28,396 nt of DNA, taken from IMG/VR virus record IMGVR_UViG_3300020446_001207, positions 1 to 28,396 of that record; one strand, given 5' to 3'. The DNA is from a virus. The position numbers were made by a program, and so were the translations under genes. Positions 1 to 22,256 of the stretch are shown piece by piece; within the stretch, counting starts at the first letter, position 1; each line of letters starts with the position of its first letter. The notes below the pieces were generated by a model that had not been told where the DNA came from, made no database searches, and saw only the letters and a list, made by a program, of their open reading frames with translations.

Positions 1-198
1 CTCTGTTGGCCTGTGATCTTTACGATCTGATCTGGCGTATGGCCAGCAATAACTACAACGATAGTTGCAAAAGCGGCCAAGAAGCCAACTAACAGTAAAC
101 AAATCTCTGTATAAAAGCGTCCTCTGTCCGACTTGTACAATGTCGTCAAAAGGAATTTTAGAAAAGTCATAGTTACTCCATTTTAAATTTTCAGACAT
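1..198 (-). CDS. Radical SAM protein, 5' end only (cut by left window edge)
   Basis: Reading the minus strand from an ATG at 198-196 gives 66 open codons that run off the left edge. Residues 44-51 are C-N-Y-R-C-S-Y-C, the CxxxCxxC motif that binds the [4Fe-4S] cluster of radical SAM enzymes, which cleave S-adenosylmethionine to a 5'-deoxyadenosyl radical. The motif is preceded by a short hydrophobic strand (FTVSWLLGRF), as expected for beta-1 of the partial TIM barrel. There is no N-terminal cysteine module before it, unlike most of the other radical SAM proteins here. The start codon has no Shine-Dalgarno sequence close by and lies about 6 nt below a perfect sigma70-type -10 box, so the mRNA may be leaderless. 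Substrate unknown. The family call is firm; everything beyond the first 66 residues is unseen. Confidence 0.85.
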   Translation of the reverse strand, partial: MSENLKWSNYDFSKIPFDDIVQVGQRTLLYRDLFTVSWLLGRFCNYRCSYCWPYARSDRKDHRPTE

Positions 199-203
199 AG
201 TTT

Positions 204-232
204 ATTATAACTTCGTTCGGTTCCTTTGTCAA
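204..232 (-). promoter_or_regulatory. Consensus sigma70-type promoter before the edge radical SAM gene
   Basis: On the minus strand TTGACA (232-227) and TATAAT (209-204) are separated by exactly 17 bp, a perfect match to the bacterial sigma70 consensus in both boxes. Transcription would begin near 197-198, essentially at the ATG of the edge gene. The TGA stop of the upstream nitroreductase-like gene (231-229) lies inside the -35 box, so promoter and coding sequence are interlocked. The box sequences and spacing are seen directly; promoter activity is inferred. Confidence 0.8.
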
Positions 233-879
233 ATTATTAATTTTCTAGGAATAATTTTTTCATAGTGTTCACTATAAAATTTTCCGTCTGTATGTTTCTT
301 ACGATCTTGATACAAAGGATATCCAACTCCTAACATTACTTCAAGATCATATTTGTTTATTTTGTATGGTGATAGTATGTCTGGAAGGGCATCATGATCT
401 ATACAACGACAAAATCCAGTTTTCATTCCTATACTGTGTGCGGCTATACCAATAGCACTAGCTGATACTCCTATTTCTAAATTAGTCGTTACTCGATAAT
501 ATTGATCATCTGCTGGGCGACCTTTTTCTCTTTCTTCTCTCATTTTTGATTTTCTCTGTTTTCTTTTAATAAAAAATAAAAATAACAAATTAGCATCTGT
601 TTGTGGATTTTGTGTCCGACCTTCTTTTAACATTTTTTTTAATGAGGGTGACATATCTTGGGATTCTTCGGGAGAATTAGTAGCCGCTTTTACAAATTTT
701 TTTATGCTGTCTCTATTTCTTATACACACAATTTCAAATGTATCAAGATTTTGTTTTGTTGGTGTAGCATACCCTATTTCTAAAAGCCATTTTGCAGTAT
801 CGTCTGGCACTGCTTTTTCTAGATTAAAATTTCTTTGACATTTTTGAAATTCATTTACTAAGTCTAACATATCATCCAT
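229..879 (-). CDS. Nitroreductase-family-like flavoprotein (copy 2)
   Basis: 216 residues, about the usual length for the FMN-dependent nitroreductase fold. The N-terminal pattern (R-x-F near residue 17, then an LLEIGYATPT helix followed by QN) matches the family segment that contacts the FMN phosphate and ring. Later come NLEIGVSASAIGIAAHSIGM, the central helix typical of the family, then GFCRCI and LGVGYP, the usual last strand. The family performs NAD(P)H-dependent two-electron reductions, and some members act as dehydrogenases or dehalogenases. It shares the GFC-x-CI and GVGYP segments with the gene at 1563-2195, so the two are paralogues on either side of a 2OG-oxygenase-like gene. Its start overlaps that gene by 8 bases, suggesting coupled translation. 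Substrate unknown; the family call comes from motif pattern only. Confidence 0.72.
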   Translation of the reverse strand: MDDMLDLVNEFQKCQRNFNLEKAVPDDTAKWLLEIGYATPTKQNLDTFEIVCIRNRDSIKKFVKAATNSPEESQDMSPSLKKMLKEGRTQNPQTDANLLFLFFIKRKQRKSKMREEREKGRPADDQYYRVTTNLEIGVSASAIGIAAHSIGMKTGFCRCIDHDALPDILSPYKINKYDLEVMLGVGYPLYQDRKKHTDGKFYSEHYEKIIPRKLII

Positions 880-1561
880 TTTTCAATTCCTCTAATGTTC
901 CTTCGAATTGGATAAGCAAACCCATTTTCCAAGGACCTATAAGTTTTCCTGTACTATGAATATTATTACTATTAAAAACAATCATGTTCCCTGGCGTAAA
1001 ATCATACGCTGTGCCTGTAAGTCCGTAGAATAATTCAGGTGTGTGATTAGCAAAATCTAAATACTCACTATAAAAGTTTGTGTCTATAGGTTGGTCAATG
1101 CAGTCATATACTTTATCATCTTCCCAAGGTGTAAGTGGAACTTTTTTGTTAAAATCAAAATTGCCATTCTTTTTGATATCTTTTCTTTTTCCATACCATG
1201 TCTGTCCAAACCCATTATCAGTGTACTGATCAAAAATTATTAATTTTTGTTTAGGATTGTCTACTTCCAAATGTATTGGAATATTAACGTTCATTAATTG
1301 CCACGGTTCGTCACTGTCTACATGTAAACTATACAAGTTTTTATGTTTGTATATGTTTCCTCCTTGACCTTTATTAGTTTTAAAATACTTGCTAAGTATA
1401 GGATTTAAAACTTCATGTAGGTGCTTCCATGGATTATTAATTTTGACTACGTCAGGATTATTTGTTTTATGAACCTGTAAATCAGGGTTATTATCAAAAA
1501 ACTCTTTTATATATTTGCATACATCTAATGGTATACTATTTTCAAAACAAGTGTGTCGCAT
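872..1561 (-). CDS. 2-oxoglutarate/Fe(II) oxygenase-like protein (copy 2)
   Basis: 229 residues. The facial-triad pattern of Fe(II)/2-oxoglutarate oxygenases is visible as H80-x-D82 (YSLHVDSDE) and a distal H202 in the strand after PGNMIVFNSNN. A basic residue follows at K212, near where the 2OG-binding Arg/Lys is expected. A beta-rich jelly roll fits NVNIPIHLEV and KLIIFDQ. The layout (HxD, IPxHLE strand, HTxELFYG, G-x-MIVF, then distal His) parallels the protein at 3351-4088, suggesting homology. Such enzymes hydroxylate, desaturate or demethylate small molecules, sugars, peptides or nucleobases. One base separates it from the gene upstream, and it overlaps the next by 8 bases. Substrate unknown. 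Confidence 0.68.
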   Translation of the reverse strand: MRHTCFENSIPLDVCKYIKEFFDNNPDLQVHKTNNPDVVKINNPWKHLHEVLNPILSKYFKTNKGQGGNIYKHKNLYSLHVDSDEPWQLMNVNIPIHLEVDNPKQKLIIFDQYTDNGFGQTWYGKRKDIKKNGNFDFNKKVPLTPWEDDKVYDCIDQPIDTNFYSEYLDFANHTPELFYGLTGTAYDFTPGNMIVFNSNNIHSTGKLIGPWKMGLLIQFEGTLEELKNG

Positions 1562-1562
1562 T

Positions 1563-2195
1563 CTAAAACCTATATGTTACTACATCATCTAAATTTGCTC
1601 TTTTATGATTATGTTCCCAAAATACATCTTTCATCGTGTTTGTATTAGGATCTAAATATTTTTCTTCGTTACTAGGATATCCTACGCCCATCATTAAATC
1701 TACAGGGTATTCTAAGTTTAATTTTTTGCCTAATTCTTCCTTACGTTCTATACACTGGCAAAACCCAGTAGCAAATCCTTCTGCTTCTAAAGCAAACATA
1801 AGAGTCATTGCTACAATTCCCATTTCCATATAAATTACTCTGTTATCTTTGTATCCGTGAAAATCATATGCTGTAGGTGACCTATCCAACTTTTTTATTG
1901 CTTTGTTAGCATTTCTCATACTAAAAATTAAAAGGATAGGAGCTAGTGTTTGGGGATTGAAAGGATCGTCATTTACTGTAGTATGTGTGTCTCTTTTTGT
2001 GTGTAAAAAAATTTCTTTTCTTAATTCTTTATCACTATAATCTAACACTGTAATATTGTAAGGCATTCTTTTTTGTTTGCTAGGAACTTTCAATAATGCA
2101 TTATTAACAATATTTTTTATTTTATCTTTGTCTACCTTTCGAGTAGTCCAAGTAAAATTTGTTTTTCTACCTTCAAGCACTGTTTTAAAATCCAT
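1563..2195 (-). CDS. Nitroreductase-family-like flavoprotein (copy 1)
   Basis: 210 residues. The C-terminal half shows the nitroreductase pattern: a hydrophobic helix (VIYMEMGIVAMTLMFALEAEG), then TGFCQCI and MMGVGYP. The N-terminal half is more divergent: RKVDKDKIKNIVNNALLKVPS resembles the usual start helix with a PS-x-x-x-x-xPY turn in place of PS-x-x-N-x-QPW, so the FMN-binding residues may be altered. It is a paralogue of the protein at 229-879. Its ATG overlaps the end of the radical SAM gene upstream by 11 bases. An NAD(P)H- or deazaflavin-dependent reductase or dehydrogenase role is possible, but the divergent N-terminus leaves activity uncertain. Confidence 0.68.
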   Translation of the reverse strand: MDFKTVLEGRKTNFTWTTRKVDKDKIKNIVNNALLKVPSKQKRMPYNITVLDYSDKELRKEIFLHTKRDTHTTVNDDPFNPQTLAPILLIFSMRNANKAIKKLDRSPTAYDFHGYKDNRVIYMEMGIVAMTLMFALEAEGFATGFCQCIERKEELGKKLNLEYPVDLMMGVGYPSNEEKYLDPNTNTMKDVFWEHNHKRANLDDVVTYRF

Positions 2196-3354
2196 AATTA
2201 TTCTCCAAATATTCCACTAGTTCGGGATTAAAATCTTTTATATCTGTGTTATAAAATTTATCTAATTTTTTAGTTGTAGACAAAAACATTTCCCATTGTT
2301 CATTATCATATTTACCCTGTTTTATAAACGTGTTAATTAATCTTGTTGCTTTACTATTATCCTTATTTTTTTCTAGTACCCAATCTTTATAAGATTGCGG
2401 AGCACATTGCAAGGATAGATATTTAGGAAACATTACAAAATCTACAGACGTTTCATATCCTTTTTTATTAATTAAAAAATTTAGTGTTTTACTTAAATGG
2501 TTTGCAGTATATAAACTAATTGTACTATGAATTGCAATATTATTTTCACAATTTAACAAACTTTTATATATTTTTGCATTCTTAAAAACTTGCGTATGAT
2601 CAGCACCAACTCTTTGATAATCATTGCTTTTGTCATATGTATCTAAACTAACATTTATTTCTAACATTTTATATTTGTTTAGTTTTTCTACTATACTTTC
2701 ATTTGGAATGCTTGTGCCATTTGTAGCAATTTCTAAATGTATTTCATTTGGATTAGATCGTTGTTCAATATAGTCTAAAAATTTTAAAAAATTAGGTGAT
2801 ATAAAAGGTTCTCCCCCTAATAACTTGATGTAAACTAATCCTGAAAGATCAAGATTATCAAATTTATCAAAAGTTGGTTCTAACTTTTTATGTACTGTAT
2901 CATTTAAAAATTTATCTCTCGCTTGTAATTTACTGCTAAATTTGCTATCACACATACGGCATTGCAGATTACAAATATTGTCTATACTCATTTCAATATA
3001 TCTAATCTGATCAAAACTATCTGTATAACTGTCTTTTAAAAATTTGGAAAAATCTTCATTAGATCTAATTCTTAATGATCTTCTATTCTTAAAAAATTTT
3101 TTATTTTTTTCTTGTAGATAACACTTTCTGCATTCTGGACGCTGTTTGCCTGCTAACATGTCTTGTCTTAAATTTTTTAGATAAGGAGTGTTCATAGCTT
3201 CAATCCCTTGAGCTTTAATTTTATCTAAATTGACATCTATCACGTCTTCCGTAATTTGGTATCTACAGCATGGTTTTATCTTTTCATCCGGACGTACACA
3301 GAGATGAGTCCATGGTAAAATACAAAAAGCATTATTATCTAAAAAATTTTTCAT
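2185..3354 (-). CDS. Radical SAM protein with N-terminal SPASM/twitch-like module
   Basis: 389 residues. Residues 1-80 hold a cysteine module of SPASM type: C11 in FCILPW, a basic strand ending in C29-C30, then C75-x-x-C78 after an LRQDMLAG helix. Such cysteines usually bind an auxiliary iron-sulfur cluster. The radical SAM core follows with CNLQCRMC at 128-135 and a LLGGEPF segment, the GGE motif that binds the SAM amino group. In classical SPASM proteins this module is C-terminal; here it leads. The start overlaps the stop of the upstream gene in a 4-base ATGA. It is closest in layout to the genes at 9529 and 10881. The reaction is unknown; the family modifies peptides, sugars or cofactors by radical chemistry. 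Confidence 0.88.
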   Translation of the reverse strand: MKNFLDNNAFCILPWTHLCVRPDEKIKPCCRYQITEDVIDVNLDKIKAQGIEAMNTPYLKNLRQDMLAGKQRPECRKCYLQEKNKKFFKNRRSLRIRSNEDFSKFLKDSYTDSFDQIRYIEMSIDNICNLQCRMCDSKFSSKLQARDKFLNDTVHKKLEPTFDKFDNLDLSGLVYIKLLGGEPFISPNFLKFLDYIEQRSNPNEIHLEIATNGTSIPNESIVEKLNKYKMLEINVSLDTYDKSNDYQRVGADHTQVFKNAKIYKSLLNCENNIAIHSTISLYTANHLSKTLNFLINKKGYETSVDFVMFPKYLSLQCAPQSYKDWVLEKNKDNSKATRLINTFIKQGKYDNEQWEMFLSTTKKLDKFYNTDIKDFNPELVEYLENNYGF

Positions 3355-4088
3355 CTATCTACATCAATACTAGCAAAACCTATTATACTTCGTTTATATT
3401 CTGTGCTTACATCAGGCAACATTTTTTCTTTAAGGTACCAACTACTGCTGTGCCATCTGCGTGTATCAAAAACCATTGCAGTGCCTACTTCCCATTTATA
3501 TGCACTATGAAAAACTAAATCTGCATATTCTTTGTAATATTCTGTTCCTGGAGGATTGTATTTTAAAACTTCTTGATCAAAAATATAGTCATCTCTATAA
3601 TGAAATATCTCATCATTATCTTGATACCGCATTTCACCTTTCCTAAATTTTAATTTTCTTGGTATATTGCTTATAGTTTCATAATTAACTGTATAAGGTT
3701 GTTTACATGTCCATTCCAAAGGTATAATTATACCTAATACTACATAACAGTCATGTGTAATAAAATCTTTGTTAGGTTTCCAACTGTTTGGAAAACTTAA
3801 ATAATCCGTATGTAAGCCTGCAGGTTCGCCGCTGTGAAAATACTCCCAAGTCCAATCGTAATCTAATTTAAACTGATTGTTCCAATAATTAACAAGATCT
3901 TCTTTAGTTTTTTTACCAACGCTATTAAATTTATTAAAGTCATTACGTCCACTTTTTTTTGCATCTTTACTTTCATATACACTATTTGCTTCCTGCAAAT
4001 ATTTTAAAGGATCAAAACTTAATTTTACAGACCCGTATTTTGGTCTATGACTTTCGTATTCTTGTAAATTTTTAAAACCATCTTTCAT
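3351..4088 (-). CDS. 2-oxoglutarate/Fe(II) oxygenase-like protein (copy 1)
   Basis: 245 residues. H93-x-D95 (GLHTDYLSF) and H213 (FDTRRWHSSSW) match the HxD...H iron-binding triad. R233 in YKRSIIGF is placed to bind the 2OG carboxylate. Between them lies a beta-rich segment (VVLGIIIPLEW) and an HSAYKWEVGTAMVF strand just before the distal His, as in phytanoyl-CoA-hydroxylase-like folds. The N-terminal 60 residues are charged and unassigned. The start shares one base with the stop of the upstream radical SAM gene, and it overlaps the next radical SAM gene by 4 bases. Likely a hydroxylase or related oxidase in the pathway; substrate unknown. A cupin without oxygenase activity cannot be excluded. 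Confidence 0.7.
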   Translation of the reverse strand: MKDGFKNLQEYESHRPKYGSVKLSFDPLKYLQEANSVYESKDAKKSGRNDFNKFNSVGKKTKEDLVNYWNNQFKLDYDWTWEYFHSGEPAGLHTDYLSFPNSWKPNKDFITHDCYVVLGIIIPLEWTCKQPYTVNYETISNIPRKLKFRKGEMRYQDNDEIFHYRDDYIFDQEVLKYNPPGTEYYKEYADLVFHSAYKWEVGTAMVFDTRRWHSSSWYLKEKMLPDVSTEYKRSIIGFASIDVDR

Positions 4089-5203
4089 TATATTATTTCC
4101 TTGTAAACATCATTCACTTCATAGATACTGCCTGGTCGATTTTTTTCTAATTTAGAAGTCCAATGCATCAATTTTGTTTTAAGAGCAGGATTATATCTTG
4201 CTGACTTAATCATTCTAATTAAATTATTCACCCATGGCACACTTTTATAATTTGTTAAGTATTTTAACTTTTCATTAAGTATATTTGTTGGAATAGCATC
4301 TAGGGTTTGATGTGGTATTCCTTCTACCGGCCATACAGTTACGGTGTTTTTTTCTAAAAACCAAGGTGCCCAATCTTCTAGATTAGGTATGTTATATACA
4401 GTGGCAACAATACTGTATTCTACTTTATCTTTACCTAATACTTCTTCATACACTGCACAGTTTTTTTCTATAGTTGCCCAACTAGCACCATGTCTTATAT
4501 ATTCCATTGTTGGTCCTATTCCATCTAAACTTATTTCTACCCGGAGGTTTTCCCACTTGGATAATTTATCCATCCAGGTTTTGTTTGTATTGGTAGCATT
4601 AGTTGTAAATGATAAATCTAGTGTGTTGTTTAATCCTAAATCGCAACAATAATCTAAAAAATCATAAAGGTCTTGCTGTATACTAGGTTCTCCTCCTACA
4701 ACCATTACTTTTTTTAATTTAGACATATCTAAATTTTTATAATCTTTTACTGGCACACTAATCTCTAATTCTATACCTTGTTCCTTGGCAATCATACTAC
4801 TGTTTTTATAACCGCATGTACGACATTTTAAATTGCATAAATTACTAGGTCTATAATCCAAGTAAAGGATATTACTTAAACCTGGTTGCAAGATATCTTT
4901 ATCTTTCCAACTATCTATTAAATCTTGTACGTGCTCGTCTTGATGCAACAGTATACGTCTACTTAGATTTCCTACTCTTTCGTTTTTTCTACATACTTGA
5001 CAAGATTTTCTATATCCTTTGTGTTTTAACATTTTCTTTTTTATTTTTTGTAAATGTTCGCTATTAATATAATCCTTTATAGAACCTTTATGTATATCTC
5101 CGTTCCATTCACAACAGGGTGTGTTTCCTCCCATAACATTTCCGTGTTGCAGGTTTACCCAAGGAGCCCAACAATATGGCTTATGCACGTTCTTCTCTTT
5201 CAA
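4088..5203 (-). CDS. Radical SAM protein with N-terminal SPASM/twitch-like module, non-ATG start
   Basis: Up to 371 residues. The N-terminal cysteine module is C11 (YCWAPW), C30-C31, then C68-x-x-C71. The radical SAM motif CNLKCRTC is at 123-130 and a VVGGEP segment follows. No ATG precedes the conserved CWAPW segment. The possible starts are TTG at 5203, with AAGGA about 10 bases upstream, or GTG at 5188, which overlaps the TAA of the upstream PLP gene as GTGCATAA. The extent given uses the TTG. A non-ATG start would lower translation relative to neighbours. Function within the family is unknown. Confidence 0.87.
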   Translation of the reverse strand: MKEKNVHKPYCWAPWVNLQHGNVMGGNTPCCEWNGDIHKGSIKDYINSEHLQKIKKKMLKHKGYRKSCQVCRKNERVGNLSRRILLHQDEHVQDLIDSWKDKDILQPGLSNILYLDYRPSNLCNLKCRTCGYKNSSMIAKEQGIELEISVPVKDYKNLDMSKLKKVMVVGGEPSIQQDLYDFLDYCCDLGLNNTLDLSFTTNATNTNKTWMDKLSKWENLRVEISLDGIGPTMEYIRHGASWATIEKNCAVYEEVLGKDKVEYSIVATVYNIPNLEDWAPWFLEKNTVTVWPVEGIPHQTLDAIPTNILNEKLKYLTNYKSVPWVNNLIRMIKSARYNPALKTKLMHWTSKLEKNRPGSIYEVNDVYKEII

Positions 5204-6104
5204 CTTTGTTTAATCCTTTATCAGTACCACGTTCATCAAATACGCCTTCGATTAAAAACCTCAAAGGTGTACGCACACCAAATTGATGTTTACCTTTACC
5301 GTCTTTTAACCAACCTACATGTATACTGTCACTTTCTTCTAAATTAAAATCAGCACAAACTTTTTTATACAAATCTCCATAATTGCTCCACCAATAATCT
5401 GTTCCAAAATGTTTCATTGCTTCTACACCTAACCACATGTCACTTACATTAGCATAGGCAAAATCATTCATAATAGCAACAGGCCCATTGATACGTTCTC
5501 TAGTGTAGCGTATGCCTATACGCTGACTGCCCATTCCTAATGCTTTACTTAAACTTACACTTACACTTTGTATAGCAGGATGTTCTATATCAAACTCAAA
5601 ATTACGACACTGGCCAAACCAAGCACCGTCTATATGAACAGGAATTTGATGAGTGTAACAATGTCCTAACAGCTTGTCAAAATCATTGTGATAATTTGTA
5701 GTGATACAGCTAGGATAACTTACTATGAAAACATCACCTTGTTTAAGGTCACTATAGTGTGTTATTTCGTTTACTTTGAAGTCTGTTAAACGCCTATGAT
5801 ACTTGTATTCTCCCTTATAAACAGCTATATTACGCCCGTGTAGTTGGTGTAACTCATCTAACTGATGCGTTGTGCCCAGTATTGCATCTCGGCGTGTAAA
5901 AGCATCTAAACCTGTGTAACTTATATGTCTATGTGCTTTTATCCATTCATCTATAGTGTTTAAAAAAGTTTCTGTATATGCATGTGGATCTCTTGGATAT
6001 GTTTTCATATCCAAATTTTCTCTAAAGTTTGTAAACTTACTAAGGTACATTGGGCGTTGTCTACGAGTACCTAGCATATCAAATGTTATGTCTTCATACT
6101 TCAT
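5181..6104 (-). CDS. Fold-type-I PLP-dependent enzyme (aminotransferase-like)
   Basis: 307 residues, short for this fold (usually about 370-420). D159 in PVHIDGAWFG fits the aspartate that pairs with the pyridine nitrogen of pyridoxal phosphate. K187 in SVSLSKALGMGSQRIG fits the Schiff-base lysine, 28 residues later as in many members. GTTHQLDELHQLHG (77-90) fits the phosphate-binding and following helix region. Small C-terminal domain elements appear reduced after residue 230. The fold includes aminotransferases, desulfurases, decarboxylases and C-C bond lyases, so the reaction is open. An aminotransferase making an amino sugar or amino acid precursor would suit the neighbouring genes. It overlaps its upstream neighbour by 11 bases and its downstream one by 23. 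Confidence 0.75.
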   Translation of the reverse strand: MKYEDITFDMLGTRRQRPMYLSKFTNFRENLDMKTYPRDPHAYTETFLNTIDEWIKAHRHISYTGLDAFTRRDAILGTTHQLDELHQLHGRNIAVYKGEYKYHRRLTDFKVNEITHYSDLKQGDVFIVSYPSCITTNYHNDFDKLLGHCYTHQIPVHIDGAWFGQCRNFEFDIEHPAIQSVSVSLSKALGMGSQRIGIRYTRERINGPVAIMNDFAYANVSDMWLGVEAMKHFGTDYWWSNYGDLYKKVCADFNLEESDSIHVGWLKDGKGKHQFGVRTPLRFLIEGVFDERGTDKGLNKVEREERA

Positions 6105-7347
6105 ATTGATCTAACCACCGCCATAATTTTTTCCAATCAGTACCTCTACGTTTGTCTATATTGTCTAAAGTAGTTTTTAATGATTTAACCTTTTTTGGTT
6201 CATAAGGTTGTGCATTTACTTTTTTCCAAAAACCTTGAAGAAATCTTATTGTTCTAGGATCTGAATGGTTCTTGATAGAACGTTTGAACTGTTTGTCAAA
6301 AAATCCTTTAGGAAAAACTCCTACGTCCATGCCCGGACGACCACTAGCAAAACTCAAACTATGTTTTACTCGTCTAATTTTATTCCATTCCGCAACTTTT
6401 TTACACAAGTCTGGTAGTGTTTGCATTGTTAAACTAATAATTGTTCCGTGAATAAGTATGCTGATAGAATCGTATTCATTTAGTATTGTTAAAAAATTTT
6501 GTTCCCATTTTTTCATGTCTAATCCTGTTCTTATATATTCTTGCTGAGGACCCCAACAATCAAGACTACATACAATTTCAAAATTTTTAATTTTTCCTGT
6601 CTTCTGTAAATTCACTACTTTATCTAAAAGTTTCCGCATTCTTTTGTTTTCAACTTTTAAATTACTAAAAATTATAAAATTTGTATCAGGACAAGGATTA
6701 TTCTCAAAAAAATCTATATTTTGTTCAAATTCAGGTTGAAAAAAGGGCTCACCGCCTAATATTCTGTATTGAACAATATGCTTTGCATTTTTTTCCATCC
6801 ATTTCCAATGTTGCTTTAACATTTCAGGATACTGTTTTCTGCCTTCTTCCATCTCTTTAAATTCAAGCGGGTGTCTCAAATTAAATTTCTTTTCTTCTAC
6901 TTCCCACACTGTACTATATTCGCCACTGCAATATATACAATTTAAATTGCATAAATTGTTAAAATAAACTTCTACCAATCTAGGTGTCAATTTTATTGCA
7001 TTAGATTTTTCTTCAAGTTCTTTAGGAGCTAACCAATCTGGTTGGTTACTTGCATTTAAGTCCATTCTATCACTATGGCCGCCTGCAAGTTCTATGTCTC
7101 TGCAATACTCACATCCGTCTCCCGGCCATTGACCTTTCTGCATAGTTTGTCTGTGTAATAACTTAGTAGGTGTGTTGTGAAAGTTTTCATAATTTTTTGG
7201 TGTTAATTTATCTGATTTTACTCTATGACAACTATTTGTACTTCCTTCCATGAGTCTGATGGTGCTCCAAGTCCACTTGTACATACAAACAGGATCTTGT
7301 AAATTGTACTTGCTTAAAAATTTTGAATTGTATTTGTTATTTTTCAT
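6094..7347 (-). CDS. Radical SAM protein with divergent N-terminal cysteine module
   Basis: 417 residues. CNLNCIYC at 133-140 is the cluster motif, and ILGGEPFFQP is the SAM-binding GGE segment. The N-terminal module is present but altered: C21 in VCMYKW, a single C40 followed by His where others have a CC pair, and C79-x-x-C82. The loss of one of the paired cysteines may change auxiliary cluster ligation. A conserved-looking region rich in basic and aromatic residues ends the protein (KLWRWLDQYEV). It directly follows the PP-loop ATPase gene, sharing one base, and overlaps the PLP gene by 11. Reaction unknown. Confidence 0.88.
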   Translation of the reverse strand: MKNNKYNSKFLSKYNLQDPVCMYKWTWSTIRLMEGSTNSCHRVKSDKLTPKNYENFHNTPTKLLHRQTMQKGQWPGDGCEYCRDIELAGGHSDRMDLNASNQPDWLAPKELEEKSNAIKLTPRLVEVYFNNLCNLNCIYCSGEYSTVWEVEEKKFNLRHPLEFKEMEEGRKQYPEMLKQHWKWMEKNAKHIVQYRILGGEPFFQPEFEQNIDFFENNPCPDTNFIIFSNLKVENKRMRKLLDKVVNLQKTGKIKNFEIVCSLDCWGPQQEYIRTGLDMKKWEQNFLTILNEYDSISILIHGTIISLTMQTLPDLCKKVAEWNKIRRVKHSLSFASGRPGMDVGVFPKGFFDKQFKRSIKNHSDPRTIRFLQGFWKKVNAQPYEPKKVKSLKTTLDNIDKRRGTDWKKLWRWLDQYEV

Positions 7348-8033
7348 TATGTCAACCTATCAAATCCATACCATCTTTCTAAACAGAAAAAACAGTATCC
7401 ACAGTGTATTGGTTCACCTTTTTTTCTAAAGTATGGTGCAGTTTCACAACTAAAAGTATGCGGATATAATTTTTCCATCATATTATACTTGTCATACAAT
7501 TCTTTTACTGCTTTTTTATCTCCACCTGCAAAAAGAAATCCGCTGTCATCAAAATGAGGATGTGTAATATGAACATCTCTTTCTTTATCTCTGTTATCAA
7601 TTGTATACATTAACCTTGATAACGGGAATCCTAATCTTTCATGATTGTCAGTTACAAATTCTATTAACTTGTCTACTGGTGGATTCATTGTGATTCCACT
7701 GTACATACGGAAAATTTTATCATTTCTATTTGCTAACTTTTGCAAATTTTCTTGACCGTTAACATAATTTTCCATTGAGTGTGGAACTAATTTAGTGTAA
7801 TGTTTATAAGGGCGTTTGCCAGTTAAGTTTGCTACAATTTCAATTATTCTTTTTGCAGACTTGATATAATTATTTTTTAAATCAGTATCAAGTGTAATAC
7901 AAATAATATTGACATCATCTCTATCCTTAAACTTATCACATACTGCATAATAAACAATAGAACTATCAGCACCGCCACTAAGTTTTACAAGTAAATTATG
8001 TTTGCCTGGGGGTAAATCTTCTATTACACTCAT
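7347..8033 (-). CDS. PP-loop ATPase, QueC-like, with C-terminal zinc-type cysteines
   Basis: 228 residues from the chosen ATG. SGGADSS at 19-25 is the PP-loop that binds ATP and adenylates a carbonyl oxygen or similar group. C196, C211, C214 and C217, ending in LERWYGF, closely resemble the zinc site at the C-terminus of QueC (7-cyano-7-deazaguanine synthase). I prefer the ATG at 8033 over that at 8045: it has GGAG six bases upstream and forms an ATGA overlap with the preceding stop, whereas the earlier ATG has no ribosome site. No QueD or classical QueE is visible here, so preQ0 synthesis is not shown. An amide-, nitrile- or thio-forming step on another substrate is equally possible. Confidence 0.8.
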   Translation of the reverse strand: MSVIEDLPPGKHNLLVKLSGGADSSIVYYAVCDKFKDRDDVNIICITLDTDLKNNYIKSAKRIIEIVANLTGKRPYKHYTKLVPHSMENYVNGQENLQKLANRNDKIFRMYSGITMNPPVDKLIEFVTDNHERLGFPLSRLMYTIDNRDKERDVHITHPHFDDSGFLFAGGDKKAVKELYDKYNMMEKLYPHTFSCETAPYFRKKGEPIHCGYCFFCLERWYGFDRLT

Positions 8034-8929
8034 GCTGTACTCCATTTTTCTACTATTGCATCTAGTTTACAAGGGCAAGCCTCGTAGTTACATAAAATAG
8101 GATCTTCTGGTAATGTATATCCTGTAAATAGATTGCCAATACTACCGCCAACGTTTTTCGTACAACGTTTCATGTTACCGTCAGGTTCTATCATTAATCT
8201 TTTAATTCCTGCTGTACACATATAGCCTTTAAATTTATGTAATCCTTGATCTAAAACTGTCATAAACTCTTTGTACTGTCCATCAAAATGTAACATTCTA
8301 GGTATTTCCCAATTTATTCCAAAATCCTTCATTTTGTTAAAATAGTTAGTTTTTATCCATTCGCGTTGTTCTTTAGTGTATTTAAAATATTCAGTACCGT
8401 GGATAGACTTTCTTACAAACTTTGGAGTTATTTCTATATTAAGTTTTTTTAATCTTTCATATAATGCTTTAGCACGTTCAAAATTTTCTGGTACAATCAT
8501 TAATGGCACACTTACACTTGCTTTGTGTTGCATGATTTCGGCTACTTGATAAAAATGATCATCATCAGCTTCTTCATAATGCCAACTTAAAAACACAAAA
8601 GCTCTGCGTGTTTTAAATTTTTCCCAATATCTTAATGTGCGACTGGCATTGGTGCCAAATTCAACAAACACTCTGTCATCACTTATTGTATCTACAAACT
8701 CTTGAAATTTAGGCCAAACTGTAGGTTCACCGCCCAGGACTTCTATGTATAAATTTTTATTCTTTGTTTTTAATTTTTCTATTAAATCCAAATAAGGTTT
8801 CCAGTCTTTAGGCCAACGGCTAGTTCCGTCTCTATGATAGTCACTACAATAACTGCAATTAAAATTACAGACATTATGCATAAACATAGTAATTATACAA
8901 CAATCTAAATTTTCGTTAGTTATGTGCAT
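8030..8929 (-). CDS. Radical SAM protein with C-terminal SPASM-like domain
   Basis: 299 residues. CNFNCSYC at 21-28 and VLGGEP define the radical SAM core, which begins close to the N-terminus. A C-terminal SPASM-type tail follows: C238, the strand RLMIEPDGNMKRC ending at C256, a GSIGNL turn, then C280, C285 and C287. This is the classical arrangement, in contrast to the N-terminal modules of most neighbours. The ATG has AAGG about 9 bases upstream and overlaps the SGNH gene by 14 bases. It is paired by a 4-base overlap with the PP-loop ATPase, so the two may act in consecutive steps. Confidence 0.88.
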   Translation of the reverse strand: MHITNENLDCCIITMFMHNVCNFNCSYCSDYHRDGTSRWPKDWKPYLDLIEKLKTKNKNLYIEVLGGEPTVWPKFQEFVDTISDDRVFVEFGTNASRTLRYWEKFKTRRAFVFLSWHYEEADDDHFYQVAEIMQHKASVSVPLMIVPENFERAKALYERLKKLNIEITPKFVRKSIHGTEYFKYTKEQREWIKTNYFNKMKDFGINWEIPRMLHFDGQYKEFMTVLDQGLHKFKGYMCTAGIKRLMIEPDGNMKRCTKNVGGSIGNLFTGYTLPEDPILCNYEACPCKLDAIVEKWSTA

Positions 8930-9542
8930 TTATTCTTACCTTCATAGATCTTGCTAATACTTCGTGTGCTATCGGTCCTGGATGTCTGTCATCTGTTGCT
9001 TTAGGAAGATCATCTGTTAAAGTTTGAAAACACAAATCGATTACATGTACTCTATTCCATTTGGGAGGATTTTGCACATACTCTCTGTTAATAGTAAAAT
9101 GATAATTTTTTACACCTAAACTATCTAGTTGATATTTTGCATAATTCATACATGTCCACATCTGATGCTGTCCATCATAATCACTGTGTGCTCTTTTTAT
9201 ATGATACCATTTATCTTTTGGCAGGGGCATATATGTTTTTGTTGCTGGCAACCCTTGCATTATAGAAATTTCGTCATCTAAAATAATACAATCTCTATTA
9301 GTATAAGTCCACAATATTACAGCAATGTCATCATGCAAAAAATCACAGCGTTGTATTGAATATAAAATTTCTTTATTAGACGCACCTGCAATACCCATAT
9401 TAATAGTTCTTCTTTTTAACAACTTTGCTAGTTTTTTTGGCCAGGCAATGTCACTAGGGTTACTCTCAGGATAAGGACAATCTTCTAATGTATGTCCATG
9501 TGTATAACTGCATCCGAAAGCTACTAATCTAGGCTTTTTCAT
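8916..9542 (-). CDS. SGNH/GDSL-hydrolase-like protein
   Basis: 208 residues from the ATG at 9542, which has AAGGA 8 bases upstream; upstream codons only offer a TTG without support. Four SGNH blocks can be picked out: FGCSYT (Ser12 as nucleophile), GIAGASN (G53 and N56 for the oxyanion hole), LWTYTNRD (N82 region) and D184-x-x-H187 (DDRHP) for the catalytic Asp and His. The family includes esterases and O-acetyl transferases or hydrolases acting on polysaccharides. In this context, acyl or acetyl chemistry on a sugar is plausible. There is no signal peptide, so it should act in the cytoplasm. The start lies inside the end of the radical SAM gene upstream. Confidence 0.75.
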   Translation of the reverse strand: MKKPRLVAFGCSYTHGHTLEDCPYPESNPSDIAWPKKLAKLLKRRTINMGIAGASNKEILYSIQRCDFLHDDIAVILWTYTNRDCIILDDEISIMQGLPATKTYMPLPKDKWYHIKRAHSDYDGQHQMWTCMNYAKYQLDSLGVKNYHFTINREYVQNPPKWNRVHVIDLCFQTLTDDLPKATDDRHPGPIAHEVLARSMKVRINAHN

Positions 9543-10881
9543 CAAACAAATCCTTGTATTGCGGTACAATGTCTAATATATTTTGACCACGTACTTCATC
9601 AAGTCTTTTTGTTTGATCAATAAAATGAGGCAACCACTCTGTAGAATAATCTTCGCTCATCATAAATTTTTCAACACCATTTAAAACTTTGACAAAGTTA
9701 TTTTTTACCTTATCTTCAAACTCTGTTGTCATTACCCAATCTTTGTGTTCTTGATAATACTGTTTTACTTGCTCTTTTAAATAAGGCGGCAAAACTTTAA
9801 CATTAAAATACTTTGGACTATGACACATATGATGCGTAATCACTGGTCTCATCCCAGTCAGCGGATTAAATTTTGTTAAACCACTTTCTACAAGTTTCCA
9901 TTTCATAAATTCAGGCATATGAAAAACATTGTAAGGTGTTACTGTAAATGCAAACCAGGCTTTCAAATTTATACGATCATTTGTTTGTAATGTCATCATA
10001 TTTTTGTACACAGCATCAAACTTTGCAGGAGTTCTTTGATAATTAAAAACATCTCCTGTACCATCTATGCTTACACCGATACGTATTTGTTTAAACTGTT
10101 CCCAAAGATATACCAACCTATCCGGAACCATTGTAAGATTACTATTGTATTCTAATTGGATAGTTTTGCTTTTGCCACTAGCTACAAGTCTTTCTAAACT
10201 TTCTTGGTGTTCTTTTATAATTAACGGCTCTCCACCTACTATGTATAGTTTTTTTGCGTTAGGTGCGTACTGCTCAAAATTACTCCAATACCTGTTATTG
10301 CTTTGAAACCAATCATATTGATTTGTATGCCATTTACCTTTTGCATTTTTTGTAAGTTTAATTTTTTCATGTGTATCTTTATATTCTGTTTTTCCGGTTA
10401 TCTTAACAAAATCGTCATACCATTTATGACTATCAGTTGGTCCGCACATTCTACATTTTAGATTACAAAAGTTTCCGTATCTTATATCTATAAAATCTAC
10501 AGGAACTTTTTTTGGATCTATTGTACCGTCTTCGGCTGTGTGTTCTTTAACGCTTTCAAGATTTACATTGCCAAACCATTTTCCCCAATCTTCATTTTCA
10601 TATTCTCTACGACTTTTGATTCCATTTATTTCTTCTTGGCGGCAACGTTCGCACTCAGGATGCCATTCTCCTTTCATCATAGATTGGCGTACTTCTTTTA
10701 ACATTTCAGCATTTCGAGCCTCGTCCCAATCGTCTTTACCTGCGTTATAAGGAGTACCATCTTTTTTCTTCATGATACCACGTTGAGGACTGTAACTATT
10801 AGTATTACAACAGATACGCAAATCTCCATTATTACGCATGTTGATACTGTTCCAAGGAAGAGGACAAAAAGTACAAGCCAT
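9529..10881 (-). CDS. Radical SAM protein with N-terminal SPASM/twitch-like module (paralogue of next gene upstream)
   Basis: 450 residues. N-terminal cysteine module: C3, C6 (FCPLPW), C24-C25 and C77-x-x-C80. Radical SAM motif CNLKCRMC at 139-146, then IVGGEP. It parallels the 469-residue protein at 10881-12290 along its length: the EDG turn before the core, the CxxxCxxC followed by a D-S pair, and a shared FNVKVLP / LNVKVLP segment near residue 360. The two are therefore tandem paralogues. The start shares one base with the stop of that gene (TAATG), which favours coupled translation and similar amounts of both proteins. Substrate unknown; a heterodimer or two successive steps are possible. 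Confidence 0.9.
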   Translation of the reverse strand: MACTFCPLPWNSINMRNNGDLRICCNTNSYSPQRGIMKKKDGTPYNAGKDDWDEARNAEMLKEVRQSMMKGEWHPECERCRQEEINGIKSRREYENEDWGKWFGNVNLESVKEHTAEDGTIDPKKVPVDFIDIRYGNFCNLKCRMCGPTDSHKWYDDFVKITGKTEYKDTHEKIKLTKNAKGKWHTNQYDWFQSNNRYWSNFEQYAPNAKKLYIVGGEPLIIKEHQESLERLVASGKSKTIQLEYNSNLTMVPDRLVYLWEQFKQIRIGVSIDGTGDVFNYQRTPAKFDAVYKNMMTLQTNDRINLKAWFAFTVTPYNVFHMPEFMKWKLVESGLTKFNPLTGMRPVITHHMCHSPKYFNVKVLPPYLKEQVKQYYQEHKDWVMTTEFEDKVKNNFVKVLNGVEKFMMSEDYSTEWLPHFIDQTKRLDEVRGQNILDIVPQYKDLFDEKA

Positions 10882-12290
10882 TATATTTCCTTAAAAATAT
10901 CTTTCATTTCTGGAAAAGTGTCGGCAAAAGTTATGCCACGCTGTTTATCACACAATGATAAAAATTCTTGCATCTCAGGTAACCTAACACTCCAATCTTC
11001 GCTGTCCATAAAATTTAATATTCCTTCTAATCGTTTAATTCCGTATTCAGCACTACGCCACTTGTCATAATCTACTTTTCCCTTGTGCCATGTTGGAACT
11101 CCTAGTTCCCAATTCTTTTCCCACCAAGGATACCATTCTTCATATTTTTTATGACATTCTTTTTTAAACCATTTAGGTAAAACTTTTACATTTAGATGTC
11201 CTGGCCAATATACAAAATGCTGACTGATGCCACCTGCTCCAAACGGCCACATATTTACTTTCTTAAATCCTTGTTCAAGTTTCCATTGTATAAGATCAGG
11301 CAAATAATATATGTTTAGAGCCTGTACAGCAGACGCTATGGTAACTTCTACATTATTTGTAGTTTCATTATCTAATCTATGAAACGTGTTGACTTGATTT
11401 GTCCAATCACTAGGATAACGTATATAATCATTCATTTTCTTAATACTATCAATTGAATAATGAAAACGCACTAATTTAAAATGGCTCCAAAGTTCAAATA
11501 AATCTTCACGCCATTCTACGCCATTAGAATTATATCTCAATTCTAAGTCTTTAGCATAACCCTTCTTAATAGCATGTTCCAGTATTTCATAATGTTCTTC
11601 AATAATTAAACTTTCGCCTCCTGCAAAATATATCTGTTGCATACTAGGCATTTGTTCATAAAACTGTTTCCAAAACGTAGGATTTTGTTTATGCCAATTA
11701 TAACTACTTCCGTTTGTTGATCCTTTATCTTTCCATTGCATTATTTCTTTTAATGATTCATTTTTTACAGCAGGAAATATTGCTTTGTAATCTTTTATCC
11801 AACCTGAACTATCATGAGGTGAACACATAACACATGCTAATTGGCATTTTGTGCCGAAACGTAGATCAATATATGCTAGATTAGGGGGTACTGATCCATC
11901 TTCATTTGTCTCTTGTAGAATTTTATCCATATCTACTCGTTGGCTCCAGTAGTTTGTTTCCCACATGCGTTTACTTCTATGTCCTGCGGCTTCTTCTTTG
12001 TAACACTTCAAACAACTAGGCGGCTGTTCGCCATTAAGCATTTGCAACCTAACATTTTTCATGTAGTCGCTATTCCATGCAGATTCAAAATCACTTACGT
12101 TGAGATTGTTTGGCTTACCATCATCTGTCTTAAGTATACCAACTTGACCGCCATGTTCTTTGTCATTTGTAGGTCCGACACTACTTGCATTGGCTGTACA
12201 GCATACTCGCATACTACCGTCAGGTCTAGTGCTTAGATGTACCCACGGTAGGATACAAAAAGTTTTTGATGGTGTTTTGTAATCAGGCAT
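10881..12290 (-). CDS. Radical SAM protein with N-terminal SPASM/twitch-like module, GGES variant
   Basis: 469 residues, the longest complete radical SAM protein here. N-terminal module: C12 in FCILPWVHL, C30-C31, then C93-x-x-C96 after a long insert. The core motif is CQLACVMC at 149-156. The SAM-binding segment reads FAGGES instead of the usual GGEP. The C-terminal part is rich in Trp and Tyr (KKYEEWYPWWEKNWELG). A 22-base gap separates it from the gene upstream, one of the few gaps in the chain, and I see no strong Shine-Dalgarno sequence in it. Tandem paralogue of the gene at 9529-10881. Confidence 0.9.
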   Translation of the reverse strand: MPDYKTPSKTFCILPWVHLSTRPDGSMRVCCTANASSVGPTNDKEHGGQVGILKTDDGKPNNLNVSDFESAWNSDYMKNVRLQMLNGEQPPSCLKCYKEEAAGHRSKRMWETNYWSQRVDMDKILQETNEDGSVPPNLAYIDLRFGTKCQLACVMCSPHDSSGWIKDYKAIFPAVKNESLKEIMQWKDKGSTNGSSYNWHKQNPTFWKQFYEQMPSMQQIYFAGGESLIIEEHYEILEHAIKKGYAKDLELRYNSNGVEWREDLFELWSHFKLVRFHYSIDSIKKMNDYIRYPSDWTNQVNTFHRLDNETTNNVEVTIASAVQALNIYYLPDLIQWKLEQGFKKVNMWPFGAGGISQHFVYWPGHLNVKVLPKWFKKECHKKYEEWYPWWEKNWELGVPTWHKGKVDYDKWRSAEYGIKRLEGILNFMDSEDWSVRLPEMQEFLSLCDKQRGITFADTFPEMKDIFKEI

Positions 12291-12312
12291 AATATACGTA
12301 CTTATCTAATTT

Positions 12313-13461
12313 TTAATGAGAAAGCTCTGCTCCTGAAAGAAACATAACTTGCTCTGGACATAAACTTGTTTTATAATCAGTATTATGTAATTTATCTACA
12401 ATATCAGTAGTGCGTTTTAAGGATTTTTGTTTTTCTATGTCTTCTACTTCAAGACATTTTTTAACATATGTATAAACATTTTTTAATCCATGTTTTTCAG
12501 CGTCTTGCAATAATTTTAACTTCATACTTTTTGGAGCGAATTTTACATCTAACTCTGAATCAAGAGGTCTAATCTGCACATCAACATATGGTCCTATGTC
12601 TTTGGATTTGCACCAAATAACATAATTTTCTAAATCTAACATATTGTAAAATTGTAGACAAAAACTTATGTTTAATGGTTTAAATTCTTCATATGAATTT
12701 AATAAATCTATATTTTTATCAAAAGTTTTCCAATCTGCTTGATGTCTAATGTAGTTGTATATTTTTCCTACACCATCTATACTTACTGTAATTTTAGTTT
12801 TTTTAAATTTTTTAATTTTATCTAATAATTTTTTATTAATTTTCGTAGCATTTGTAGTAAATTTTATTTCTAAATTTTTTGCATAATCATTATCTATACA
12901 CCAATCAATAACCTCAAGAAAGTATTTACAAGCAAATGGTTCTCCTCCTGTTACTTTCAATATTTCTAAACCTTCTGAAATTAATTTTTTAGTGTGTTGC
13001 ACTTTTTTTTCTGCTTGTGAATTTGACTTAAAATGAGGATTGGATCTTTGAATATGGTGAGGCATATCATAAGTTTCAACACTAGAATATAATTTTTCTA
13101 ATTGCGAACTAGATGAAGGTATACACATTCTACAAGCTAAATTACAAGTGTTAGTAAATTTTATGTCTAAATATTTTATCTTAACTTGTTTATAATCACA
13201 ATTACGAAATTCTTTTAGTGCCTGTTGCCTATGACTGACTATATTGTTAGACTCATGATCTTTACATATTTTACATATTAAAGGAAATTTACCTTGTATA
13301 AACTCTTGTCTACTTTTTTTGTGTACAGGACTATTTAGACCCTGTTCAATAGTAATTGTTCTCCATTGAGGATCATTGTTATATGTAACACAGCAAGGAT
13401 GTACATATGACGTTGTTCCTATACACTGATGCATCCAAAGATATGGACATTTTAATCTCAT
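12313..13461 (-). CDS. Radical SAM protein with N-terminal SPASM/twitch-like module
   Basis: 382 residues, starting with a short leader straight into the cysteine module: C5 (KCPYLW), C13, C23-C24 and C63-x-x-C66. The core motif CNLACRMC is at 106-113, followed by VTGGEPF. The protein is notably lysine-rich. The ATG overlaps the stop of the upstream radical SAM gene by 4 bases (ATGA). The next gene begins after a 22-base gap. The family is secure, the substrate unknown. Confidence 0.88.
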   Translation of the reverse strand: MRLKCPYLWMHQCIGTTSYVHPCCVTYNNDPQWRTITIEQGLNSPVHKKSRQEFIQGKFPLICKICKDHESNNIVSHRQQALKEFRNCDYKQVKIKYLDIKFTNTCNLACRMCIPSSSSQLEKLYSSVETYDMPHHIQRSNPHFKSNSQAEKKVQHTKKLISEGLEILKVTGGEPFACKYFLEVIDWCIDNDYAKNLEIKFTTNATKINKKLLDKIKKFKKTKITVSIDGVGKIYNYIRHQADWKTFDKNIDLLNSYEEFKPLNISFCLQFYNMLDLENYVIWCKSKDIGPYVDVQIRPLDSELDVKFAPKSMKLKLLQDAEKHGLKNVYTYVKKCLEVEDIEKQKSLKRTTDIVDKLHNTDYKTSLCPEQVMFLSGAELSH

Positions 13462-14534
13462 TTAAATTGCTCCGTAAAAGGGTCAAACTCGGCTCCGCAT
13501 TTCATGGCGCATACTTTTAGTTTTCCTAAACTACAACTTTCATATTTCCAGCTTCGTTGAATAGTATTAAAGATGCCTGTGTCGAATACTTCTTTTAAAC
13601 CGTTCCTTGCATCTATAGCATCTTTGCCGCCTGCAATATCTATATGTGTCCAAATTTGTTCTACATAAGGATCTTTATGCCACCATTTATACATACGTCC
13701 AGCAGTCCAACAGCAAGGCATTGCCAAACCTTCTGCTGTAATGTATATTTCTTTTTTATCCACACACTTAGGTTTAATTGGTGCAACATCATAATATGCA
13801 TCCATGGATCCATATTTTTCAATAATTACATCTTGTTTTTTAAGTGCTTTGTTTTGATATTTAGGATCAGGTTTTTTAAGTTCTGTAGAAGCTTTTCCTT
13901 TTTTATTTACTGCTTGGTGCGTTTCTTTCTTTTTGGAATCTTGCGTAATAAATCTACCTGTTTTTTTTGCAACAAACTTTTCGAATCCCCATTCTTTACT
14001 TAATGCTTCTGCTTCTTCAACTTGATGTTGATTATGTTCAAAAATTAAAAAATCCCATCTAGCTCTGCCTCCACCTTTTACAAATGCTTTCATCGCACGT
14101 TCAACGTTGTCCCAAACAACGCCTTGGCGGTATAAGTGATTTGTAGATCGTAAGCCATCAACGCTAAAGATAACAGCACCACTACCAGCAAAAATTTTTG
14201 CCAATCCCATCCACCAGTTTTCATCTCTTGCTCCGCCGTTAGTATTCATACTTAGCCACATTTTAGGGTTATGTTTTCTAAAATAACGGAATATTTCAAG
14301 TGTATCTTTCGCAACAATAGGATCACCTAAGTTGCCACACATATACATTGTTTTTAACTGAGATATAAATGCAGGACTAAAAATTCTTTTACAGTCTTCT
14401 AATGACAGTTCATCTAAATTTATATGTGGATTAATACCCTCACCGTTCATGTTCCTATCACACATTGGACAGGCGGCCTGGCAGTTTTGTGTTACTTCTA
14501 AATGAACAGTTTGTATATCTTCATATCTATACAT
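13458..14534 (-). CDS. Radical SAM/SPASM protein with GNLGDP variant and Lys-rich insert
   Basis: 358 residues. CQAACPMC at 18-25 is the cluster motif. The GGE position is occupied by CGNLGDP (66-72), a variant seen in a distinct radical SAM subgroup. VIFSVDGL and the R-Q-G-x-x-W-D-N segment are typical of SPASM enzymes. C-terminal cysteines C257, C274-C275, C334, C342 and C346 fit a SPASM domain binding auxiliary clusters. Residues 198-235 form a lysine-rich, probably disordered insert between core and SPASM domain. It is first of the radical SAM genes in transcription order and overlaps the 74-residue gene by 8 bases. Substrate unknown. Confidence 0.88.
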   Translation of the reverse strand: MYRYEDIQTVHLEVTQNCQAACPMCDRNMNGEGINPHINLDELSLEDCKRIFSPAFISQLKTMYMCGNLGDPIVAKDTLEIFRYFRKHNPKMWLSMNTNGGARDENWWMGLAKIFAGSGAVIFSVDGLRSTNHLYRQGVVWDNVERAMKAFVKGGGRARWDFLIFEHNQHQVEEAEALSKEWGFEKFVAKKTGRFITQDSKKKETHQAVNKKGKASTELKKPDPKYQNKALKKQDVIIEKYGSMDAYYDVAPIKPKCVDKKEIYITAEGLAMPCCWTAGRMYKWWHKDPYVEQIWTHIDIAGGKDAIDARNGLKEVFDTGIFNTIQRSWKYESCSLGKLKVCAMKCGAEFDPFTEQFK

Positions 14535-14751
14535 CTAATACTAACTTTACAGTTTTCCCAGGCCCTACTTTACTTGGTAAATCGCCATACTGCTCAATAT
14601 ACCATTCAACCACAGCTCTATACCAGTTATGACTGTTGTGATGGGCTTTTTGATTAAACTGCCATATGTTATTGTTTGTAGCCTGCATAGTGCTTAATGC
14701 CCTAGCACTTTCCTTTTGCAGTTCTCGTAAATTAAGTGATTCTATTGTCAT
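14527..14751 (-). CDS. Small protein of unknown function (74 residues)
   Basis: Not recognised. The ATG overlaps the stop of the methyltransferase-like gene in a 4-base ATGA, and its own stop overlaps the next radical SAM gene by 8 bases, so it is very likely translated. It is probably helical in residues 5-25 and 38-54. A His/Asn/Trp-rich middle (KAHHNSHNWYRAVVEW) and a C-terminal PGKTVKLVLDV follow. It has no cysteine, so it lacks the usual features of a thioether peptide precursor. Position next to a SPASM enzyme allows a role as partner, adaptor or carrier for radical SAM chemistry, but nothing in the sequence proves it. Confidence 0.65.
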   Translation of the reverse strand: MTIESLNLRELQKESARALSTMQATNNNIWQFNQKAHHNSHNWYRAVVEWYIEQYGDLPSKVGPGKTVKLVLDV

Positions 14752-19686: not shown

Positions 19687-19715
19687 AGTATATACTAAAA
19701 CGGTCTATTTGTCAA
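19687..19715 (-). promoter_or_regulatory. Consensus-like sigma70 promoter at the head of the enzyme operon
   Basis: On the minus strand TTGACA (19715-19710) is followed after exactly 17 bp by TATACT (19692-19687), one base off the -10 consensus. The expected start near 19680 gives a leader of about 16 nt with GGAGA before the ATG at 19664. The -10 lies in a perfect 10-bp palindrome, AGTATATACT (19687-19696). It sits in the only sizeable gap between the structural genes and the enzyme chain. Sequence and spacing are seen; activity is inferred. Confidence 0.75.
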
Positions 19716-20687: not shown

Positions 20688-20710
20688 ATTCTCATCCTTT
20701 AAGTACTACT

Positions 20711-20719
20711 TTTATTTAG
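20711..20719 (-). promoter_or_regulatory. Candidate T4-like late promoter, weaker match
   Basis: The minus strand reads CTAAATAAA here, about 24 bases before the ATG at 20687. It is a variant of the TATAAATA late -10 used by T4-like phages. The same spacing and a similar word recur in two other structural gaps, which is the main support. Confidence 0.35.
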
Positions 20720-20725
20720 CAATAA

Positions 20726-22234: not shown

Positions 22235-22256
22235 TTTTTACCCCTGTTTATAAGTA

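Follow-up and report, generated by a model that had tools for sequence, protein, structure and literature searches.

A variable, tail-fibre-linked locus rich in radical SAM genes in an uncultured T4-like phage

Gene content of the window

The IMG/VR virus record IMGVR_UViG_3300020446_001207 (28,396 bases, analysed in its entirety and referred to here as the window) carries a run of radical SAM (rSAM) genes beside genes for tail fibres. The window is filled by 29 genes, all of which are on the minus strand. As the initial annotation had proposed, positions 1-14534 hold eight complete rSAM genes and the beginning of a ninth. Matches to PF04055 were found on the minus strand at 1-198, 2185-3354, 4088-5203, 6094-7347, 8030-8929, 9529-10881, 10881-12290, 12313-13461 and 13458-14534, each with E ≤ 2.9e-5 and six of them above the cut-off; all nine genes contain CX3CX2C and none has an internal stop. 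The record breaks off within the locus at base 1, so the full number of rSAM genes is at least nine. Six of the proteins (E, G, I, M, N and O in the list below) score 213.5-423.6 bits against NF033640, the NCBIfam model of N-terminal-twitch rSAM proteins (curated cut-off 170 bits), while K (23 bits) and P (40.2 bits) fall below it. The name implies an extra Fe-S 'twitch' domain ahead of the radical domain, but denotes a subfamily without an assigned reaction.

The enzymes interspersed with the rSAM genes are also as originally described, with differing support. Two nitroreductases match PF00881 and a QueC/QatC-like PP-loop protein has weak matches; two probable 2-oxoglutarate (2OG)-type oxygenases, a pyridoxal phosphate (PLP)-type enzyme and an SGNH-type protein have no Pfam match, and their roles were assigned from motifs seen by eye only. 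A queuosine-like or 7-deazaguanine (QueC/QueE) pathway was considered and rejected, as J reaches 18.6 of 22 bits for PF06508 and the QueE models lie far under their cut-offs. The genes and promoters are as follows.

A, 1..198, minus: rSAM protein of the conserved core, truncated at the end of the record (66 amino acids); PF04055; relatives have a C-terminal SPASM-like tail (full-length relative L222:15914-17023)
Promoter before A, 204..232, minus: consensus sigma-70-type TTGACA-17-TATAAT, 12/12 match, 5 nt from the start codon
B, 229..879, minus: nitroreductase family; PF00881, E 4.8e-10
C, 872..1561, minus: probable 2OG-type oxygenase; HxD...H by eye, no Pfam match; block-conserved
D, 1563..2195, minus: nitroreductase family; PF00881, E 2.2e-9
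E, 2185..3354, minus: N-terminal-twitch rSAM; NF033640, 255.6 bits
F, 3351..4088, minus: probable 2OG-type oxygenase of the M-K-H-F block; motif by eye; colinear in relatives
G, 4088..5203, minus: N-terminal-twitch rSAM; NF033640, 217.3 bits
H, 5181..6104, minus: PLP-type enzyme of the M-K-H-F block; motif by eye; no Pfam or Protein Data Bank (PDB) match; 14 colinear contigs
I, 6094..7347, minus: N-terminal-twitch rSAM; NF033640, 213.5 bits
J, 7347..8045, minus: PP-loop, QueC/QatC-like, with SGGxDS; PF06508, E 0.0014, and QatC, E 8.9e-4, both below cut-off
K, 8030..8929, minus: rSAM with C-terminal SPASM-like tail, M-K-H-F block; PF04055, 42.6 bits; STM4011-like, below cut-off
L, 8916..9569, minus: SGNH-type; GCSYT...DxxH motifs by eye; no Pfam match
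M, 9529..10881, minus: N-terminal-twitch rSAM, opens the M-K-H-F block; NF033640, 355.4 bits
N, 10881..12290, minus: N-terminal-twitch rSAM, conserved core; NF033640, 423.6 bits; 148 viral relatives; 15/291 Bdellovibrionota
O, 12313..13461, minus: N-terminal-twitch rSAM; NF033640, 246.3 bits; no close relative found by the scan
P, 13458..14534, minus: rSAM of the conserved core, with a SPASM-like tail at the C terminus; PF04055, 30.8 bits; at 68/73 N loci; 16/291 Bdellovibrionota
Q, 14527..14751, minus: 74-residue helical protein, part of the core in phages only; 52/65 loci; predicted fold
R, 14748..15569, minus: candidate class I methyltransferase-like protein, core; conserved close to S in the phages and in part of the Bdellovibrionota
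S, 15544..17160, minus: two-domain GT-A-type glycosyltransferase (AlphaFold model, Foldseek against PDB), core
T, 17157..17705, minus: operon protein without a family match
U, 17702..18523, minus: probable glycosyltransferase; phrog_1903 (function unknown); DxD by eye
V, 18520..19332, minus: probable glycosyltransferase; clusters with U
X, 19332..19664, minus: 110 amino acids, conserved; first gene of the operon
Promoter before X, 19687..19715, minus: sigma-70-type TTGACA-17-TATACT, 11/12 match
Y and Z1-Z4, 19728..26836, minus: tail-fibre/collar and virion genes at the border of the locus (PHROGs); Y and Z1-Z3 are tail-fibre genes, Z4 a virion gene; late-type GATAAATA before Z1 and Z4
Z5, beyond Z4: virion gene

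Architecture, promoters and carrier phages

A scan of IMG/VR based on N found 148 relatives, from which 80 loci were retained; genes were called in ten relatives for the anatomy of the locus. The order is giant virion protein, Z4-Z1, Y, then X, V, U, S, R, Q, P, N and A, and at the far end of some contigs there is a block with a second fibre gene and phrog_1297/phrog_1314 genes. The scaffold consists of S, R, Q, P, N and A, while variable tailoring genes occupy the P-N and N-A intervals (0-9 kb). These slots take up to about 20 extra enzymes of rSAM, 2OG-type oxygenase, nitroreductase, PLP, PP-loop and SGNH type, in combinations that differ between phages. Of the loci with enough flank, 68 of 73 have P upstream of N (gap -34 to 8,111 nt) and 33 of 44 have A downstream of N (gap 22 to 9,062 nt).

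One arrangement within the slots is itself ordered. A scan based on H gave 14 contigs, including a few near-duplicates, and M, K and H have the same order in all of them; F follows H in 13, the remaining contig ending within H, and N stands ahead of the M-K-H block in 13. J, I, L, E, D, C and B are optional, in fixed order. A pattern scan with O found no close relatives; one with E also found none, yet the nearest contig has an ortholog (566 bits). An origin of the window locus by chance or misassembly can be ruled out, since this gene order is also present in independent contigs. Co-occurrence of the genes elsewhere, which had been suggested as a check, is thus borne out. The locus is modular, with a conserved core and interchangeable cassettes.

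CX3CX2C is kept in 168 of 168 rSAM proteins of the two main clusters, as it must be with a filter built on this motif; only four further hidden Markov model matches in the relatives lack it, one of which is a 183-residue fragment. The raw median pN/pS (nonsynonymous to synonymous) ratios are 0.17 (N), 0.16 (A), 0.21 (K), 0.20 (H), 0.22 (Q), 0.33 (P), 0.36 (S) and 0.50 (M), values that are rough because synonymous sites are near saturation, and the genes look to be under purifying selection. A loss of cluster residues by most of the proteins in relatives, which the initial annotation held would speak against a working pathway, was not seen.

Two classes of promoter appear to divide the locus. 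X has a TTGACA-17-TATAAT-type promoter in 11 of 12 distinct upstream regions. For A, a sigma-70-type promoter with at most two mismatches is present in 28 of 44, 15 of them perfect, and the -10 box lies 5-6 nt from the ATG in 26; a leaderless A mRNA, conserved in the phage relatives, is predicted. In shuffled upstream regions, promoters with at most one mismatch arose in 0.6% of trials for A and in none for X. Such promoters are rare or absent before N, P, Q and R, as expected for genes inside an operon. The T4-late-type motif NATAAATA was found 9-35 nt upstream of Z4, Z1 and, in six contigs, the first Y gene; in the window, GATAAATA precedes both Z4 and Z1. We also note that HATAAATA, the late-type motif scanned, has one site in the window compared with 23.5 in mononucleotide shuffles (which do not control for coding bias), and that its sites in ten related contigs recur directly upstream of virion genes. 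Given the sigma-70-type promoters of X and A and the T4-late-type motifs of the tail-fibre genes, the enzymes are probably made early and the fibres late, by analogy with the general pattern of T4 infection.

Gp23/T4-type capsid genes are present in five longer related viral contigs, which places these contigs, as distinct from the window fragment, among T4-like phages. The capsid of one of them (G008) has its nearest counterparts in jumbo T4-like phages, with 71% identity to that of Sinorhizobium phage Phosso, 70% to that of Vibrio phage 2.275.O and 67% to that of GAP32. The window derives from an uncultured phage lineage related to this group. Beside the tail fibres lies a giant virion protein, some 4,500-5,300 residues long (G001 94736-109534, G002 50838-66719, G003 107144-121060 and the start of G018), with a homolog in Phosso. 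Across 48 related contigs, the number of PF04055 copies per fragment is 5-22 (median 12), with the highest count, 22 domains, on a 72-kb fragment; the reference phages have one (GAP32), none (Vibrio 2.275.O), four (Phosso), 11 (CP220) and two (Mosig). No cultured phage with the N-P-A core was found: with N, P, O or S as the query, identity did not exceed 27%, and Z5 had no match.

The region appears to be a variable, tail-fibre-linked 'host recognition cluster' (HRC) of an uncultured T4-like phage: like an HRC, it lies among the structural genes, varies between phages and combines tail fibres with glycosyltransferases. The borders expected of an HRC are VrlC and gp14; on one side here stands the giant virion protein, on the other the phrog_1297/phrog_1314 genes. 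Pelagimyophage HRCs are known to carry rSAM cassettes (Zaragoza-Solas 2020, PMC7029224). Like the locus described here, they and the isolate Pelagibacter phage Mosig EXVC030M have a variable island of glycosyltransferase, rSAM, nitroreductase, aminotransferase and oxygenase genes next to tail fibres and a giant virion protein, and several non-rSAM families are common to both; they differ in belonging to another phage lineage, in having far fewer rSAM genes (two PF04055 matches in Mosig) and in that the N-P-A core was not found there. The Campylobacter phages CP220 and CPt10 are likewise T4-like, with 11-12 rSAMs and an exchangeable five-rSAM module that includes glycine amidinotransferase (Timms et al., PMC2853527) and nucleotide-sugar-transferase-like genes, but their rSAMs are only weakly similar to those of the window (best 76 bits). 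Phosso (PV764938) shares, besides the capsid similarity, the giant virion protein, Z4 and a fibre, and has an rSAM cluster in the same place; its 4-5 rSAMs, however, show no recognisable orthology to N, P or A. Eight rSAM genes lie within the structural/tail-fibre cluster of the Aeromonas giant phage 332-Vera (PMC12390700), which is reported as Chimallinviridae and is alike by its published description. Groups of rSAM genes beside tail genes recur in unrelated sets and are of a kind already known, and their density in the window is not unique among phages. Our literature search found no account of a product or of a link to Bdellovibrionota, nor of the core-plus-slots structure, the rSAM numbers or the promoter split.

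The core in Bdellovibrionota

Approximately 85,000 species genomes were scanned with the N alignment, and proteins with more than 50% identity to N were found almost exclusively in Bdellovibrionota. There N, P and A occur together, often with S and sometimes with R, in ordinary chromosomal surroundings, and in one case (L157) as a self-contained S-N-A-P cassette with ordinary genes around it. No T4-like capsid gene was found in ten Bdellovibrionota genomes with the core. Among 291 Bdellovibrionota genomes N is present in 15, P in 16 and A in 17; the N-positive genomes have A in 15 of 15 and P in 13 of 15, all three being present in 13. The hypergeometric probabilities of such co-occurrence are 2.8e-23 (N-A) and 4.4e-18 (N-P), uncorrected for kinship. 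Q is absent from the Bdellovibrionota loci examined.

The exceptions in the N scan are metagenome-assembled genomes (MAGs) labelled 'Planctomycetota', 'Rickettsiales', 'Gammaproteobacteria' and 'Chloroflexi'. These matches are probably mis-binned phage contigs, since T4-like capsid genes occur in the same genomes, twice on N's own contig. Apparent contigs of this phage group were likewise noted in MAGs of unrelated phyla (L146, L147, L155, L156 and L159), four of the five genomes having T4-like capsid genes.

The phage and bacterial A proteins share 59-68% identity. In the N tree the phage sequences form a single clade (support 100/98), adjacent to Bacteriovoracaceae, Halobacteriovoraceae and one further bacterium (99/94). 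Passage of the core from bacterium to phage is likely, short of proof because the tree is rooted on a distant outgroup, and the N-P-A core was probably gained once from a relative of the Bdellovibrionota. Further exchange is hinted at by a B12-binding rSAM of the phage clusters (L114:13833-15341 and relatives), which scores 757-828 bits against Bdellovibrionota proteins (L153, L173, L175, L176). Some Bdellovibrionota chromosomes (L165, L174, L176 and others) also have additional tandem clusters of N-terminal-twitch rSAM genes.

The presence of the same core in Bdellovibrio-type chromosomes makes it look like a real biosynthetic pathway. The dedicated pathway originally envisaged thus stands insofar as a conserved core is common to phages and bacterial chromosomes, but not as one fixed set of nine enzymes; a unique fixed pathway is ruled out by the variation of the locus interior.

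Functional interpretation

S is, on its predicted model, a GT-A-fold glycosyltransferase: a domain modelled with AlphaFold (predicted local distance difference test, pLDDT, 92.7) matches GT-A enzymes in the PDB by Foldseek, namely the fucosyltransferase WrtF (E 1.8e-5), RmlT, TarS and ArnC. Searches of solved structures with N, A, K and H gave nothing useful, the only match being a weak one between N and SkfB (E 0.0016). In a Pfam census, 96 non-rSAM proteins, about one per cluster, included nitroreductases, Asp/Arg hydroxylases, Trp halogenases, class III and DegT/StrS aminotransferases, FkbM and other methyltransferases, GNATs, a UDP-glucose dehydrogenase, a GDP-mannose-dehydratase-like protein, an AMP-ligase, an aldehyde dehydrogenase and others. 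This mix is more in keeping with decorated sugars or glycosides than with a peptide. Tryptophan-halogenase genes (PF04820, E 1.4e-109) were seen in or near the rSAM clusters of related phages (L126:7982-9538 and the L113:17675-19090 region), and one phage contig (L143:6468-7898) has a gene for a TctA transporter within its cluster (PF01970, E 1.5e-93).

In our view, the most consistent interpretation, which we hold at a little under even confidence, is that the HRC of this phage encodes an early, variable envelope-glycan pathway. The host RNA polymerase would transcribe the enzymes soon after infection; P, N and A would build an unusual core unit, perhaps an amino-, deoxy- or C-modified sugar or cyclitol, which S and the neighbouring transferases would attach to a glycan and the cassette enzymes would decorate differently in each phage. 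The altered envelope might then block adsorption of competing phages or prevent loss of progeny on spent receptors. More tentatively, we consider it possible that a hitherto undescribed biosynthetic system, a three-rSAM core (N, P, A) with a dedicated glycosyltransferase, native to Bdellovibrionota and captured once by the phage lineage, serves as an early platform on which the cassettes produce numerous variants within a novel class of decorated glycans or glycosides. Several points weigh against a glycan pathway of this kind. The Foldseek TM-scores of S are just about 0.4; the sigma-70-type promoters suggest early transcription but do not prove it; flippase and polymerase families are absent among the 25 of 40 census families listed; and Q has no cellular counterpart. 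Furthermore, P, A and K have SPASM-like tails, and rSAM enzymes of this class often act on peptides.

In two other explanations, proteins or peptides are the substrate. The rSAM set may modify proteins, chiefly the adjoining tail fibres, by cross-linking, methylation or epimerisation and so alter receptor binding. The adjacency of rSAM clusters to tail-fibre genes in several phage lineages, the SPASM-like tails, near-matches in NCBIfam that are mainly peptide maturases and a variability that parallels host-range variation would all fit, whereas the apparently separate promoter classes of enzymes and fibres, the chromosomal core in bacteria without such fibres and the place of the glycosyltransferase S in that core do not; we regard this explanation as unlikely, yet a live rival. 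The promoter classes argue similarly against virion modification, which the initial annotation had raised, as the main role. A ribosomally synthesised and post-translationally modified peptide (RiPP) pathway with Q as the precursor might be suggested by this short conserved open reading frame immediately ahead of the rSAM-SPASM gene P. Q, however, is conserved over its entire length, is predicted to be compact and helical (pLDDT 89.5, with no match among PDB folds) and is missing from the Bdellovibrionota loci, features that disfavour it as a precursor, and all NCBIfam RiPP maturase models score below cut-off. We consider such a pathway very improbable.

The other live rival is that the locus produces a small diffusible molecule, similar to an aminocyclitol, a nucleoside or an amino acid, which acts on the host machinery or on competitors; this seems to us slightly less likely than modification of the fibres. 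Early-type promoters and a natural-product-like mix of Trp halogenase, AMP-ligase, DegT/StrS and class III aminotransferases, an amidinotransferase-like protein and B12-rSAM would suit it, but it leaves the glycosyltransferases and the linkage to tail fibres unexplained, and no export or resistance genes are evident apart from the one TctA. Extensive presence/absence variation, and the lack of a close relative of O, might instead reflect a gene-accumulating hotspot without a coherent pathway; the fixed scaffold, colinear block, common cellular core, intact motifs and low pN/pS are at odds with this, and for the core it is contradicted by the bacterial co-occurrence; we consider it improbable. 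Support of the host's general metabolism under low oxygen, an idea favoured by the proposal made for CP220/CPt10 (PMC2853527), is as remote as the RiPP pathway: the window has probable oxygen-using 2OG-type enzymes (from motifs only), no core metabolic pathway was recognised and hypervariable cassettes beside fibres are ill-suited to housekeeping.

The minimal bacterial S-N-A-P cassette, with four genes, makes the puzzle of many-rSAM phages a pathway that can be reconstituted, and in isolates with rSAM clusters in the same place (Phosso with Sinorhizobium, Mosig with Pelagibacter) roles in host recognition or superinfection exclusion are testable. With up to 22 rSAM domains on a 72-kb fragment, such phages form an extensive reservoir of demanding radical chemistry that has yet to be exploited.

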